This document shows positions 25,649-62,310 of a stretch of DNA of 64,000 nucleotides, one piece after another. The DNA comes from Gordonia sp. SID5947. Lineage in GTDB: Bacteria > Actinomycetota > Actinomycetes > Mycobacteriales > Mycobacteriaceae. The DNA lies in assembly GCF_009862785.1 (NCBI RefSeq), contig NZ_WWHU01000001.1, forward strand, positions 3,844,001 through 3,908,000, written 5' to 3'. The notes under the pieces are model-generated. The model was not told the DNA's origin. It did no database searches and saw only the letters and a program-made list of their open reading frames with translations. The position numbers were made by a program, and so were the translations under genes. How positions within the stretch are numbered: the first letter of the stretch is position 1; every line of letters begins with the position of its first letter.

Positions 25649-27145
25649 TTACAAGACGCCATGCATGCGTTGCCGTACCCACCCGCCGAGGCACAACTGG
25701 ACGATGCCGGCCGTGATCGCGACGCCGCCGAGAACGGCCCAGTAGGCGGTCACATTGCTGTAGTACTGCCCGAAGACGCCTGCGAGGCTCGTGCCGAGAC
25801 CGATGGACAGGTAGTAGACCGCGATCATCTGGGTTCGGTAGGCCGCGGGAGCAAGCTTCGTCGACATGCTGATTCCAGTCGGCGCGAAGATGATCTCGCC
25901 GAACGCCATGATGAGCAGTAGTAGGAAAACATATAGGAGCGGCGTGGAATCGGAGTTGGTGAAGGGGATGAACATCAGGAACGAGCAGCCGATGAGCGGT
26001 AGTCCGATGCCCATCTTCGTGGGAGTGGACGGCTGCCGATCACCCATCTTGGTCCACAGCGTGGTGGCCAGGAGTGATACGACCAGGGTCACGCCCGACG
26101 ACAAACCGATGATCCAGGCGACGGGCATTTCCCAACTGCCGATCCACCGGTTCACGTTCTGGTCGGCGTAGACGGCGATTGCGCCGAAGACCTGCATCAG
26201 CAGGCTGTAGAACACGACGTTCGAGAACAGTTGGGGCAGTGACGAGTACACGCGGTCGCGCTCGACCGGCGTGATGCGATCAGAGCGCAGGATCGTGATC
26301 AGGTAGGCCACGAGTGTCACGCCGATCGCTCCTGTGAACCAGTAGGAGATGTTGTCCAGAGTCAGGATGCCGAGCGCGAAGGCAAACAAGACCACAGCGA
26401 CGACGGCAACAACGCTGATGGTGACGGCCGTGCGAGTGCGGCTCGAGCACGCGTTCGGGACGATGTTGACTGACGCGGGGAGACTTGACCGACCGAAGGC
26501 ATAGAGGATCAGTCCGATCGCCATACCAACCGCGGCGCAGCCGAATCCGGCGTGGAACCCCCAAGTGGTCTGCATGAATCCGGTGAGGATGGGGCCCAAC
26601 GCGACCCCTGAGGTGAGCCCCGCATAGAAGAGGTTGAAGCCGGCTTCCCTCATCGGGTCGCCTTCGCGATACAGCCCACCGAGGATGCCGGTCGCGTTGG
26701 CAATCAGGCCACCTGAACCGAGGGCGATGAGGATGAGTCCGAGCGCGAGGCCAGGTACGCCCGGGACGAGGGCCAGTGCGATATGGCCGCACATGATGGT
26801 GAACCCGGACGCGAACATGAGTCGCTCAGCGCCTACCACCCGGTCGGCCAGCCATGCGCCCGCCACCGTGGCGAAATAGACGCTCGCTCCATAGGAGCCG
26901 ACGACACCGATCGCCACCGCCTCGGACAGGCCAAGCCCCCCGTCTGTCACCGAGTAATAGATGTACAGCGCGAGGATCGACTGCATCCCGTAGTACGAGA
27001 ACCGCTCCCAAAACTCGAGAGAGACGAGGTACGCGAGTGCACGGGGGTGTCCGAGGAGCTTGCGCTCAGAGGGCGTGGTGGCACCCGTGGGGGCAGTCGC
27101 GCGATCGCGATTCGCTGTCGCTGTCGCCGAGCGGTTGGTGTCCAT
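25649..27145 (-). CDS. POT/PTR2-family proton-dependent peptide transporter
   Basis: 498-aa 12-14-TM transporter. The first helix has LEFWERFSYYGMQSILALYIYY, containing the ExxER proton-coupling motif of peptide transporters, and FSNVVFYSLLMQVFGAIAVYADQNVNRW fits the PTR2 signature region. It imports di- and tripeptides with protons. The ATG at 27145 is used; the frame extends upstream to 27370 without support. Two TetR-type inverted repeats lie upstream (27288-27303 and 27451-27462). Confidence 0.9.
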   Translation of the reverse strand: MDTNRSATATANRDRATAPTGATTPSERKLLGHPRALAYLVSLEFWERFSYYGMQSILALYIYYSVTDGGLGLSEAVAIGVVGSYGASVYFATVAGAWLADRVVGAERLMFASGFTIMCGHIALALVPGVPGLALGLILIALGSGGLIANATGILGGLYREGDPMREAGFNLFYAGLTSGVALGPILTGFMQTTWGFHAGFGCAAVGMAIGLILYAFGRSSLPASVNIVPNACSSRTRTAVTISVVAVVAVVLFAFALGILTLDNISYWFTGAIGVTLVAYLITILRSDRITPVERDRVYSSLPQLFSNVVFYSLLMQVFGAIAVYADQNVNRWIGSWEMPVAWIIGLSSGVTLVVSLLATTLWTKMGDRQPSTPTKMGIGLPLIGCSFLMFIPFTNSDSTPLLYVFLLLLIMAFGEIIFAPTGISMSTKLAPAAYRTQMIAVYYLSIGLGTSLAGVFGQYYSNVTAYWAVLGGVAITAGIVQLCLGGWVRQRMHGVL

Positions 27146-38033: not shown

Positions 38034-38061
38034 GATGGCCGGCCCTTCGGGGCCGGCCATC
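38034..38061 (+). terminator. UUCG-tetraloop terminator after whiB4
   Basis: Perfect 12-bp stem (38034-38045 and 38050-38061) capped by a TTCG tetraloop, 31 nt after the whiB4 stop. Very stable; no clean T-tract follows, only GTCGTGTT. Confidence 0.75.
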
Positions 38062-38118
38062 GTCGTGTTCGTGATCGTCGTGTTCGTGATCGTCGTGTTG
38101 GTGATCGTCGTGTTCGGG
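38059..38118. repeat. 15-bp tandem repeat, four copies
   Basis: Four consecutive 15-bp units, the first two identical (ATCGTCGTGTTCGTG), the third and fourth with one or two changes. The array starts on the last bases of the terminator hairpin and ends 28 bp before the stop of the convergent ATPase gene. Confidence 0.75.
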
Positions 38119-58631: not shown

Positions 58632-59693
58632 ATGACCGATCAGCTCCTCGTCCTGGTGGGCCCCGACCTCGCCGACGACGTCGCCCGATGTGCGGCCGCA
58701 GCGGGATACCGGATGCTGCGCGCCGACCCCGACCACTGCCGTCGGGAGTGGCCGCGTGCGGATGCCGTGGTCGCCGATGTCAGCGCCACGCGTGTACTCG
58801 CCGAACTGGGCCCACCGCGTCGTGCAGGCGTGGTTGTGGTCACCGATCATGAACCGGCGGAGGACATCTGGCGGTGCGCGATGCGTCTCGGGGCGGATCG
58901 GGCGTTGACGTTGCCGTCCGAGGAATCCATCCTCGTCGGGTTGCTCACCGATCTACGGGCGCCGCAGGCCAATCCGGCGGGTGCGGTCGCCGTCGTCGGT
59001 GGGCACGGAGGAGCGGGTGCGACGACGCTGGCGGCGGCAGTGGCCCTGGTCGCGGCCGAGGACTCCGCGCGCGTATTGCTCTTCGACGTCGACGAATTCG
59101 GTGCGGGGATCGATCTGACGCTCGGTATCGAGGATCGCGCGGGGCTTCGCTGGCAGGACCTGACGCTGGAAGGCGGCGCCGTGCGAGCGCGGTCGCTGCA
59201 CAGTGCGTTGCCGCAGGTGAACGACCGGCTGTCGGTGCTCGCGCCCCGCCGTGAGAGTCGGCTGCCGATCAGCGTGGACGCCGTCATCGCGACGATGGAT
59301 GCCGGTCGGGTGAACGGCGACACCGTGGTCGTGGACCTGCCCCGCACGGCAGGCGTGGTCAGCGATGCCGTTCTCGATTCCGTCGATCTCGTCGTGCTCG
59401 TCACCTCGGCAGGTGTGCATGGGGTGGCGGCGTCGCGGACCGTCGCAGCGTGGCTGGACGAGCGTGGGATCGCGGCGATGTCGGCGGTCCGGGGCCCGGC
59501 CCCGAGCGGGCTGCGCGCCGCGGAGGTGGCGACCGCCGTCGGACTCCCGTTGCTCACCGCATACCGATCCGATCCGGGGCTGCCGGGCCGGATGGAGTCC
59601 GGGAGATTGCGGGTTCCATCGCGTAGCCCGCTCGGCCGTGCGGCCCGTGCGGTGTACCGCAAGGTTGCTGTCGGCGAACGGCTCGTGGCGTGA
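58632..59693 (+). CDS. ssd: Ssd/CpaE-like septum-site / pilus-locus ATPase homologue
   Basis: About 353 aa (ATGs at 58611 and 58632 both possible). An N-terminal receiver-like domain (LLVLVGPDLADDVARCAAAAGYR, VVVTDHEPAEDIWRCAMRLGADRALTLPSEE) precedes a MinD-type fold whose P-loop reads GGHGGAGATTLAAA, without the usual Lys. VVVDLPRTAGVVSDAVLD is the switch region. M. tuberculosis Ssd (Rv3660c) affects septation; CpaE relatives place Tad pili. First gene of the Tad operon. Confidence 0.88.
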   Translation: MTDQLLVLVGPDLADDVARCAAAAGYRMLRADPDHCRREWPRADAVVADVSATRVLAELGPPRRAGVVVVTDHEPAEDIWRCAMRLGADRALTLPSEESILVGLLTDLRAPQANPAGAVAVVGGHGGAGATTLAAAVALVAAEDSARVLLFDVDEFGAGIDLTLGIEDRAGLRWQDLTLEGGAVRARSLHSALPQVNDRLSVLAPRRESRLPISVDAVIATMDAGRVNGDTVVVDLPRTAGVVSDAVLDSVDLVVLVTSAGVHGVAASRTVAAWLDERGIAAMSAVRGPAPSGLRAAEVATAVGLPLLTAYRSDPGLPGRMESGRLRVPSRSPLGRAARAVYRKVAVGERLVA

Positions 59694-60865
59694 ACGGTCC
59701 GCACGACGCACTTCTCGACCGTGTGCGTGACCGTCTTGCCGCCCAGTCCGCCGAGCCGACGGCCGAAGTCATCGCCGACGCGATCCGCTCGGAGTCACGC
59801 GGCATGCTCGGCGACACGGATCTGCTTGCTGCCCTGAGGTTCCTGCAGACCGAGTTGATCGGCGCGGGCAAGCTGGAGCATCTGCTCGCCGAACCCGACG
59901 TCGCGGACATCCTGGTCGTCGGCGCCGGACGGGTCTGGGTCGATCGCGGAAACGGTTTGCAGCGCACCGATATCCGGTTCGACGACGAAGCGGCGGTCCG
60001 CCGACTCGCCAGCCGGCTGGCACTCAGCGCGGGTAAGCGACTCGACGACGCGCAACCCTGGGTCGACGGCCAGCTCGCGGATCTCGGTCGTCGTGGCCAT
60101 GCTGTCCGACTGCATGCGGTGATCCCGCCGGTGGCGACCGACGGAACATGCATCTCGCTGCGCATACTGCACACCGCGACCAGGAACTTCGATGAACTCG
60201 TAGAGCTCGGCGCCATCCCGGCCGAGGCCGTGGAACCGTTGCGCGCCATGCTGCGCGCCCGACTCGCGTTCCTCATCGTCGGCGGTACCGGATCCGGCAA
60301 GACCACACTTCTCGGATCGCTGATCGGAGAGATGGACGAGTCCGACCGGATTCTGTGCGTCGAGGACGCACTCGAGCTCGATCCGCCACACCCGCACATC
60401 GTGCGTCTCGTCGCCCGCACACCGAATGTGGAAGGGGCCGGGGAGGTCCCGGTGCGAACACTGGTACGGCAGGCTCTCCGGATGCGACCGGACCGGATAG
60501 TGGTGGGCGAGGTCCGCGGCGCGGAGGTGATCGACCTGCTGACGGCGCTGAACACCGGGCACGAGGGATGTTCGGGCACCCTGCATGCCAATTCGACGTC
60601 GGAGGTCCCGGCGAGAATGGAAGCGCTGGCGGCGCTCGGCGGCATGTCCCGCGACGCGCTGCACAGTCAGCTCGCTGCCGCGGTGCACGTCGTGTTGGGC
60701 GTCGCCCGAACACCTGGTGGCTCGCGCGGTCTCACCGAGATCGCGCTGGTGTCGCGCGACCGTGACGGGTTCGTACGTACCCGGCCGGTGTGGATGCGCG
60801 CCCACGGTTTCACCGACGAGATGTGCGACTTCGATGCGTTGGTGCGGGCCCGGTCACACACATGA
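59690..60865 (+). CDS. tadA: TadA/CpaF-type secretion ATPase
   Basis: 391-aa type II/IV secretion ATPase powering pilus assembly. FLIVGGTGSGKTTLLGSL (Walker A, about 197), CVEDALELDPPHPHIV (Asp box region), RMRPDRIVVGEVRGAEVIDLLTALNTGHEG (Walker B) and STLHANS-like GTLHANSTSE (His box). GTG start overlapping the ssd stop. Confidence 0.93.
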   Translation: MNGPHDALLDRVRDRLAAQSAEPTAEVIADAIRSESRGMLGDTDLLAALRFLQTELIGAGKLEHLLAEPDVADILVVGAGRVWVDRGNGLQRTDIRFDDEAAVRRLASRLALSAGKRLDDAQPWVDGQLADLGRRGHAVRLHAVIPPVATDGTCISLRILHTATRNFDELVELGAIPAEAVEPLRAMLRARLAFLIVGGTGSGKTTLLGSLIGEMDESDRILCVEDALELDPPHPHIVRLVARTPNVEGAGEVPVRTLVRQALRMRPDRIVVGEVRGAEVIDLLTALNTGHEGCSGTLHANSTSEVPARMEALAALGGMSRDALHSQLAAAVHVVLGVARTPGGSRGLTEIALVSRDRDGFVRTRPVWMRAHGFTDEMCDFDALVRARSHT

Positions 60866-61659
60866 TCGCGATCATCATGGCGTCGGCCGTCGCGGTGCTC
60901 TGGTGGCCGTCGACCCACCCCCAGTATCGGATCGCCGCACTCACACCGGGGTCGTCGACGCGGGCGCACACAGTTCCGTGGCGCGTGTGCGTCGCATGTG
61001 GCGCCCCGGTGGCGGCCATCGTGACTGTCGGATTCCACGCGGCGGTCGCCGTCACGTTGCTGTCGGCGACGGCGATGTGGCGATGGCGCCGCACACAACG
61101 GGTCCGGGAGCGGGAACGGGAGACCTCAGATCTGCTGCTGGCGTTGTCGGTGATGACGGCGGAGCTGTCTGTGGGAGCCCCGCCCGCGCTGGCGTGTGCG
61201 GCCGCAGCGCGCGAACTCGGCGCTGCTCACCCGAGTTCGCCGGTCGCCGAGGGCCTCACGATGATGGCGGGCCGTGCCGAACTCGGCGGAGAGGTGATGC
61301 CGGACGTCGAGGCCGACGATCAGCTCTCGTGGCGTCGGGTGGGGATCGCATGGCAGACCGCCGACCGGCATGGCCTCCCGATGATCGAGATGGTGGAGTC
61401 GGTCCGGTCCGACCTGCTGGCACGCAGGCAGTTCGCCACCCGGACGCGCGCAGGCCTCGCCGGCCCGCGTGCCACTGCCGCGGTGCTCGCCGGGTTGCCG
61501 ATCGTCGGGATCCTGCTGGGTGAACTGATGGGCGCCCATCCCACCGGGGTGCTTCTCGGAGGCGGGATCGGCGGTGTGCTGCTGATCGTCGGGACCACGT
61601 TGTCGGTGGCCGGGTTGGTGTGGTCGGAGCGGATCACCGACCGGGTGATCAATCGATGA
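60862..61659 (+). CDS. tadB: TadB-like type II secretion F-domain protein
   Basis: 265-aa inner-membrane platform protein. Two TM segments near the N-terminus (about 1-20 and 45-65), a cytoplasmic GspF-like helical domain (SDLLLALSVMTAELSVGAPPALAC, QTADRHGLPMIEMVESVRSDL) and two C-terminal TM helices (VLAGLPIVGILLGELMG, LLIVGTTLSVAGLVW). ATG overlaps the tadA stop; its own stop begins an unusual ATGA series. Confidence 0.88.
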   Translation: MIAIIMASAVAVLWWPSTHPQYRIAALTPGSSTRAHTVPWRVCVACGAPVAAIVTVGFHAAVAVTLLSATAMWRWRRTQRVRERERETSDLLLALSVMTAELSVGAPPALACAAAARELGAAHPSSPVAEGLTMMAGRAELGGEVMPDVEADDQLSWRRVGIAWQTADRHGLPMIEMVESVRSDLLARRQFATRTRAGLAGPRATAAVLAGLPIVGILLGELMGAHPTGVLLGGGIGGVLLIVGTTLSVAGLVWSERITDRVINR

Positions 61660-61695
61660 GCGTCAACCGATGAGCATCAACCGATGAGCGTCGGC
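61654..61695 (+). repeat. 14-bp tandem repeat with three ATGA start-stop overlaps
   Basis: Three consecutive 14-bp units beginning CGATGAGC (61654, 61668, 61682). ATG 61656 overlaps the tadB stop and opens a 5-codon ORF (MSVNR) whose TGA overlaps ATG 61670. That opens MSINR, whose TGA overlaps ATG 61684, the tadC start. The region thus forms a chain of coupled mini-ORFs. Confidence 0.8.
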
Positions 61696-62310
61696 GCGAT
61701 GTGTGCGATCGCGGTGGCGGGTATGGCGCTCTGGGTATGGCCGTCACCAGGGTGGGTACTGCACCGGGTGGTCGATCCGGCGTCAGGGCCGGGCGAGGGT
61801 GAGTCCACAGCGAAGCGTCCCGCACCCGACGACCCGTTCGCCGTCGCGGCGTCCTTCGATCTCTTCTCCGTATGTCTGCGGGCCGGGATGCCGATCGCCG
61901 CGGCGGCGGCCGTGGTCTCTCGTTCCGCACCACCGGGGCTCGCCATACCGTTGGCGTCGGCGGCCGAACTCCTGGGACTGGGCGCAGATCCAGAGCACGC
62001 CTGGCGACGATTCGATGGTTCCGGTGCAGGTGGCCGGAAACCCAAGGACAAGAACAGCGATGGCGACCGCTTCGAGGCTCTGGCGACGCTGGCGCGCCGT
62101 TCGGCACGGTCCGGATCGTCGCTGTCGGGTGGCCTGGCCGAACTGGCCGACAGCACGCGTCGGGAGGCGCACGACGATGCGTTGGCCGCGGCCGAACGCG
62201 CCGGCGTCGCGATCAGCGGTCCGCTGGGCCTGTGCTTCCTGCCGGCCTTCGTCTGTCTCGGAATCGTGCCGGTGGTCGTCGGCCTCGCCGGATCGGTCCT
62301 GGGTGGCTGA
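61684..62310 (+). CDS. tadC: TadC-like type II secretion F-domain protein
   Basis: 208-aa partner of TadB: an N-terminal TM helix, the helical segment DPFAVAASFDLFSVCLRAGMPIAAAA, a central charged loop (RKPKDKNSDGD) and a C-terminal TM pair (PLGLCFLPAFVCLGIVPVVVGLAGSVLGG). Start fixed by the last of three ATGA overlaps, since the two earlier ATGs end after five codons. Confidence 0.85.
   Translation: MSVGAMCAIAVAGMALWVWPSPGWVLHRVVDPASGPGEGESTAKRPAPDDPFAVAASFDLFSVCLRAGMPIAAAAAVVSRSAPPGLAIPLASAAELLGLGADPEHAWRRFDGSGAGGRKPKDKNSDGDRFEALATLARRSARSGSSLSGGLAELADSTRREAHDDALAAAERAGVAISGPLGLCFLPAFVCLGIVPVVVGLAGSVLGG

Follow-up and report, generated by a model that had tools for sequence, protein, structure and literature searches.

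A tandemly duplicated stop-start junction between tadB and tadC in Gordonia sp. SID5947 as a probable ribosome relay

The tad operon and its multiplied junction

The window considered here, the whole 64-kb stretch of the Gordonia sp. SID5947 genome that was analysed, carries on its forward strand a tad operon in the order ssd-like ATPase gene, tadA, tadB, tadC and a small DUF4244 gene. The tadA gene (59690..60865) encodes a T2SSE ATPase (Pfam T2SSE, 1e-52); its GTG start shares a GTGA at 59690-59693 with the stop of the ssd-like ORF before it. It is followed on the same strand by what we take to be tadB (60862..61659), a name that rests on gene position because the product has no Pfam match at E 0.001; its ATG at 60862 overlaps the tadA stop (ATGA), its TGA lies at 61657-61659, and the ORF itself opens at 60790, the longer frame having served as the query in searches. 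The tadC gene (61684..62310) encodes a T2SSF protein (Pfam T2SSF, 4.5e-14). The ssd/tadA and tadA/tadB links are 4-nt overlaps as well, and it is only the tadB/tadC link that has been multiplied.

At this link a 14-bp unit can be read three times from the letters at 61649-61692, the same interval that TRF reports with period 14, 3.1 copies, 90% matches and a score of 74. Positions 61640-61700 read ...ACCGGGTGATCAATCG ATGAGCGTCAACCG ATGAGCATCAACCG ATGAGCGTCGGC..., in which unit 1 (TCAATCGATGAGCG, 61649..61662) and unit 2 (TCAACCGATGAGCA, 61663..61676) each have one mismatch to the unit TCAACCGATGAGCG and unit 3 (TCAACCGATGAGCG, 61677..61690) has none, all on the forward strand. Three ATGA overlaps at 61656, 61670 and 61684 link the tadB stop, two forward-strand 5-codon ORFs read from the letters, MSVNR (mini-ORF 1, 61656..61673) and MSINR (mini-ORF 2, 61670..61687), and finally tadC, whose ATG overlaps the stop of mini-ORF 2. 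The initial annotation had described a 14-bp unit present three times with each ATG overlapping the preceding stop, and the letters, TRF and the ORF coordinates all bear this out, except that the array begins 5 bp earlier than had been given, at 61649. The tadC ATG is 24 nt beyond the tadB stop and, after the added 28 bp, tadC is in the frame of tadB, the first upstream stop in the tadC frame being tadB's own TGA.

After dinucleotide shuffling of the window, 200 trials yielded no array of three 14-bp units matching at 25 or more of 28 positions. With the period left free between 8 and 20 and the same 3 mismatches tolerated, 45 of 100 shuffles contained some array, most of which should be due to lenient short periods. 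The rest of the window holds a single further match to the unit with at most 2 mismatches, at 25985. An assembly artefact is unlikely, since the array is just 44 bp long, substitutions distinguish its units and the 5.1-Mb genome is assembled in two contigs. The top-scoring tandem repeat of the window according to TRF lies elsewhere, at 38059-38116, where a 15-bp unit (ATCGTCGTGTTCGTG) of frame-keeping length is present in 3.9 copies.

The junction in related genomes

Relatives of tadB are present in 58 of the 59 genomes of the genus, the source genome included (G026 has no match), and all 58 junctions were read; L009, which is the same place as L010, was left out, as was L008, where no tadB came up. 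A direct NTGA overlap joins tadB to tadC at 53 of the 58 junctions, four have relays and one has no overlap. The 14-bp relay was found in none of the 57 other genomes with a junction read, which comprise 53 direct overlaps (52 by script, plus L044, where the BLAST anchor lies before its start and which was checked separately), three single relay ORFs of 11 to 16 codons, and one junction (L056) at which a TAG is followed by an ATG 3 nt further on. The three single relays (L035, L036 and L040, of 11, 16 and 11 codons) have similar ORFs and probably stem from one event. The nearest species (L011 and L012, TadB identity 78-79%) have ATCAACCGATGA once, that is, one unit. At one further locus near a contig end (L067, G028), the tadB match is split into two pieces that overlap and lie in different frames, through either a frameshift or an assembly error.

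The same arrangement extends beyond the genus. Among 40 junctions from 13 other genera of the family, chosen from the better-scoring of the listed matches (386 of 401 family genomes have a match), 37 are direct NTGA overlaps, two are TGATG and one (L289) runs via a 51-codon ORF that overlaps each neighbour by 4 nt. Seven of the eight named loci were readable, six of them direct and the seventh, from Actinophytocola (L003), with two chained 10-codon ORFs. Stop-start contact is thus nearly universal among the tadB-tadC junctions read, and where extra DNA is present it is usually bridged by ORFs, a statement for which L035, L036 and L040 call for caution. When the intervening bases are shuffled, 3.6% of trials still chain at the locus studied here and 6.3% in L003; at L035, L036 and L040 the length of the insert makes a chain nearly automatic (it persists in 88-94% of shuffles), and tadC there is preceded by SD-like sites of -7.6 to -14.5. 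The three single relays had been considered as strong independent support, were dropped from that role after the shuffles and count as weak support.

Origin of the array and the arithmetic of its period

The two mini-ORFs combine the start of TadC (MSV, MSI) with the end of TadB (NR), which is the pattern expected from a duplication spanning the junction, so that it was the junction itself that was duplicated. Together with the single unit in the nearest relatives, this make-up supports the tandem duplication that had been proposed. An ancestral tadB/tadC ATGA overlap underwent two 14-bp tandem duplications to give a stop-start relay, and the single substitutions by which the units differ suggest that the array is not brand new. 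A mobile origin of the kind seen in MIRUs was considered and set aside, because the units are only 14 bp long and are built of the local junction. The 401-bp junction occurs at one place in the genome, a search that a lone 14-bp copy would escape, and the genome's two remaining ATGA triples with 14-bp spacing consist of units unlike that of the tad array.

Not every unit length permits such a relay. If ATGA recurs every p bases, a frame opened at one ATG closes at the very next TGA only when p is 2 mod 3. With p equal to 0 mod 3 the downstream protein is lengthened; with p equal to 1 mod 3 the handover is broken if there are two units, and with three the frame of the first ATG stays open as far as the third TGA. 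The earlier statement that a 14-bp duplication keeps the ATGA overlap while shifting the frame therefore holds for this unit, the reason given for it, that 14 is not a multiple of 3, being too loose, as the exact requirement is a period of 2 mod 3.

A survey of equally spaced ATGA arrays

The 59 genomes of the genus were searched for three ATGA at equal spacing, which gave 22 matches at period 14, 15 at period 13, 14 at period 11, 74 at period 17 and 32 at period 16; with identical flanks counted once, these became 22, 13, 10, 43 and 24 arrays, respectively. Periods 13 and 16 served as controls, having TGA in all three frames like 14 and 17 without chaining stepwise; for this reason none of the four periods can lie within a gene coded on the same strand. 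A reversed pattern offered no suitable null, since ATGA read backwards is a non-equivalent word. Arrays were called tandem when adjacent units were at least 70% alike, and attached when the first ATGA held the stop of a called gene or the last ATGA held the start of one. Genes were called with a codon model that had been trained on most of the tad loci and recovered every one of their 66 tadB ends and tadC frames; it replaced a model trained on the window only, which was too insensitive and missed tadC. Of 1833 ATGA sites drawn at random from this pool of loci, 127 scored UP and 492 DN.

Tandem arrays of periods 11, 14 and 17 were attached in 35 of 56 cases, as against 4 of 21 for periods 13 and 16 (p=8e-4). 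Deduplication, applied to both classes by keeping a single member of each orthologous cluster and a single entry for each combination of locus and period (attached preferred), left 34 of 50 attached in the 2 mod 3 class and 3 of 18 in the 1 mod 3 class (p=2.4e-4), and without the tandem filter the deduplicated figures were 45 of 68 and 5 of 30 (p=6.8e-6). Unattached tandem arrays were about equal in number, 16 and 15. Earlier classifications, by ORF length alone and by the window-only codon model, had pointed the same way. Arrays of 2 mod 3 period thus adjoin gene borders more often than do those of 1 mod 3 period. The contrast rests mainly on 16 versus 17 bp: for 14 versus 13 bp alone it was significant among all arrays (17/22 and 4/13 attached, p=0.012) and not among tandem ones (13/16 and 3/5, p=0.55). 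Nor did the classes differ significantly in arrays with genes directly on both sides, whether tandem (7/50 and 0/18, p=0.18) or all (8/68 and 1/30, p=0.27). Tracing chains through further NTGA hops, by which 40 of 56 and 9 of 21 tandem arrays reach a gene on at least one side, was set aside as the main test because it was too permissive and raised matches in both classes, bringing them nearer to each other; a three-ATGA array of 1 mod 3 period is itself bridged by a single longer step, provided that no stop lies in between.

Examples of such arrays, with gene names assigned in part from Pfam domains, lie between fmt and rsmB (L070, MRPQR twice), carB and pyrF (L149, MTVASA twice), YcsF and EamA genes (L152, MTTQHR twice), nuoB and nuoC (L162, MRELLG and MREQLR) and a NUDIX-protease pair (L210, three 6-codon ORFs); an MFS gene (L156) is preceded by six 6-codon ORFs, with the upstream gene uncalled at the first ATGA. 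For fmt-rsmB, 30 loci were read out of 59 genomes with a match, and 29 have a direct NTGA overlap, the array of two identical 5-codon ORFs being present in G008 only, a distribution which suggests the same history as at tadB-tadC, with a single overlap giving rise to an array in one species. Unit number can vary between close species: one 17-bp array has three ATGA in L206 (G001) and six in L209 (G028), both in register, with flanks 94-95% identical. The 17-bp arrays in L156 (G021) and L218 (G053), with seven and eight ATGA in register, are candidates for a reinitiation dose series. The genome of origin contains a second tandem 14-bp ATGA array (MKVLR, MRVLR) at G000:C1:3968556-3968587 (L089, also within L348), which directly precedes an 81-codon coding-scored frame, the TGA of a called gene beginning 4 nt upstream. 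Four other 14-bp ATGA arrays (L069, L075, L079 and L084) start at the stop of a called gene and have no gene called or chained at the last ATG, and so some arrays may merely extend 3' ends.

Conserved chains of short ORFs were also seen in a different setting, between ylxR and infB at 13 loci (L320-L323, L326-L328, L331, L332, L335-L337 and L339) of one other genus (g3), which has small genomes and is probably Corynebacterium. The order is a 5-codon ORF, MKHQR, a third short ORF, in most loci a hairpin-like stretch noted by eye, and infB (IF2), which has its own SD. MKHQR is identical at all 13 loci and its 18 nt are invariant. The ylxR frame touches the chain in 11 of the 13, nine times as TGATG, once as ATGA at the first ATG and once at the second ATG, and ends earlier in L322 and L326; in L328 and L336 the ylxR stop was read from the frame. 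Pfam was used to check one IF2 and two YlxR products, Rfam gave no match at gathering score for three infB-leader loci, and nothing on a ylxR-infB chain was among the literature matches listed. As IF2 serves initiation, it is conceivable that the chain is a feedback leader.

Translation across the junction

The start signals at the three ATGs are unequal. An SD-like GGGTGAT lies within tadB at 61643..61649 on the forward strand, 6 nt before the ATG at 61656, its exact extent having been placed from the letters, and the computed SD duplex energy is -6.8 kcal/mol before that ATG. By the same computation no SD-like site precedes either mini-ORF 2 at 61670 (-3.0) or tadC at 61684 (-1.9). Across the genus the energy before the overlap start has a median of -6.8, and 43 of 59 rows, in which the locus studied here stands twice, are at or below -6; 19% of 1000 random places in the window, which were not codon-matched, reach that value, and conservation of tadB codons could account for part of the SD-like signal. 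Folding of the junction mRNA relative to that of one relative gave z -1.5.

Whether coupled genes are translated through local restart or in other ways is unsettled according to one review (PMC12548453). Huber 2023 (PMC10666635) reports no reinitiation at a 22-nt gap and near zero at 23 nt in H. volcanii; in E. coli, 14 added nt lower it by 40-80% and 38 added nt leave almost none, and 15 nt from the end of the gene upstream are enough for reinitiation. That length is exactly five codons. Given this distance dependence, the 24-nt gap and the lack of an SD-like site at tadC, the relay is the likeliest route to TadC; the tadC ATG has been moved 24 nt past the stop, away from the SD-like site that most relatives keep, so that chained reinitiation is also the likeliest way for coupling to persist. 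A ribosome ending tadB would restart at the overlapping ATG at 61656 and make MSVNR, would restart again at 61670 to make MSINR, and would then restart on tadC at 61684, the three 4-nt overlaps keeping a coupling that would otherwise be lost over the gap. That a duplication-made stop-start relay carries ribosomes from tadB to tadC in this manner, keeping the genes coupled, is probable in our view, and the comparison with relatives suggests that it keeps tadC synthesis linked to that of tadB; that ribosomes take every step of the relay is our inference. Successive termination and restart had been put forward in the initial annotation, and the support for it is indirect, coming from overlaps at nearly all junctions read, the missing tadC SD, the period rule and the published distance dependence.

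One alternative, which we consider unlikely, is that slippage here was neutral and that tadC initiates independently, at 61684 or at the ATG at 61699, the mini-ORFs being idle. The array is confined to one of the 58 species read, there is indeed a further in-frame ATG 15 nt downstream of 61684, and ATGA arrays are not rare, with 74 matches at period 17 alone and many off called genes. Against this, an SD-like site is absent before either ATG (-1.9 and -3.0), TadC read from 61684 has a 20-residue lead to its WP motif, as in L012 and L013 (17 in L011), and the period rule would be unexpected if slippage were indifferent to it. A ribosome might instead slide from the tadB stop to the tadC ATG 24 nt on and bypass the mini-ORFs, and scanning by 70S ribosomes has been reported by others according to the review (PMC12548453); two ATGs lie on that path, and the steep fall of reinitiation in the Huber data, to about zero at 22-23 nt in H. 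volcanii and by 40-80% at +14 nt in E. coli (PMC10666635), makes this route quite improbable.

It is more improbable still that the 5-codon ORFs form a regulatory pair of minigenes acting through peptidyl-tRNA drop-off, pausing or protection of the mRNA. In axe-txe, a minigene within the operon is able to increase, in cis, how much the following gene is translated (PMC8708949), but the peptides here are merely the TadC start joined to the TadB end and occur in one species, without conservation. Readthrough of the TGA to give a TadB-TadC fusion would be permitted by the common frame of the two genes after the 28-bp addition and by the tadB TGA being the first upstream stop; that agreement of frames follows from the arithmetic of the period, and a fusion is barely credible. 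Chained reinitiation through the mini-ORFs is thus the reading retained here, and as a side effect it would yield less TadC per TadB, in proportion to the product of the reinitiation yields. Tuning of the TadB:TadC ratio, which had been raised at the outset, is possible in this one direction, toward less TadC, while a tolerated duplication that preserves coupling fits the data equally well and is the simpler account. The likeliest cause of the array's persistence is that a period of 2 mod 3 spares both proteins and their coupling, rather than selection as a rheostat.

Implications

The main interest lies in recurring, rule-bound arrays and less in the tadB-tadC junction alone. A broader proposal would be that tandem stop-start relays are a general evolvable joint of operons, in which slippage at coupled NTGA overlaps is kept only at 2 mod 3 and unit number sets downstream translation stepwise with the proteins untouched; this is a speculative extension that we think doubtful. 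Orthologous junctions with one, two and three or more steps would amount to a natural dose series, from which output per unit would give the yield of a single reinitiation, and the period rule would be a signature, readable from sequence, of junctions at which coupling is under selection. There is also a consequence for annotation, as ORFs of 5 and 6 codons are shorter than gene finders usually accept.

Relation to known systems

The closest parallel is 4-nt overlap coupling (ATGA or GTGA), which has the same stop-start overlap of co-directional genes and represents the ancestral state here. Such NTGA overlaps are present throughout the tadB-tadC array, which differs in being a relay of three overlaps with two 5-codon ORFs. 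Short upstream ORFs are said to deliver ribosomes in mycobacteria, work attributed to Shell in 2015, and this property is possibly shared with the tad mini-ORFs; the mycobacterial ORFs are typically leaders at transcript starts, whereas the tad mini-ORFs are operon-internal and tandemly repeated. MIRUs, reportedly the subject of work by Supply in 1997, have unit lengths of 53, 77 and 101 bp, which are also 2 mod 3. The tad array has the short ORF and 4-nt overlap of a MIRU, and its 14-bp unit falls short of the MIRU length of about 50-100 bp.

The review PMC12548453 describes MIRUs as short ORFs, present repeatedly, that are coupled to the gene downstream at a spacing of -4 nt, a principle that the tad array shares. 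They appear mobile, occupy many places and are several times longer, while the tad unit is 14 bp and derives from the local junction. The axe-txe minigene mg2 (PMC8708949) is a very short ORF just before a gene that acts in cis with a dependence on distance, and can be likened to the tad mini-ORFs, which have few codons (five) and an SD-like site, of -6.8 kcal/mol for the first and only -3.0 for the second; mg2 differs in having two codons, a single copy and a 15-nt gap without stop-start overlap. Home-grown tandem stop-start relays are absent from the titles and abstract starts of the open PMC papers listed, a scope outside which most subscription papers fall. The working principle of the tad array is a known, MIRU-like one, and its home-grown 14-bp unit sets it apart.
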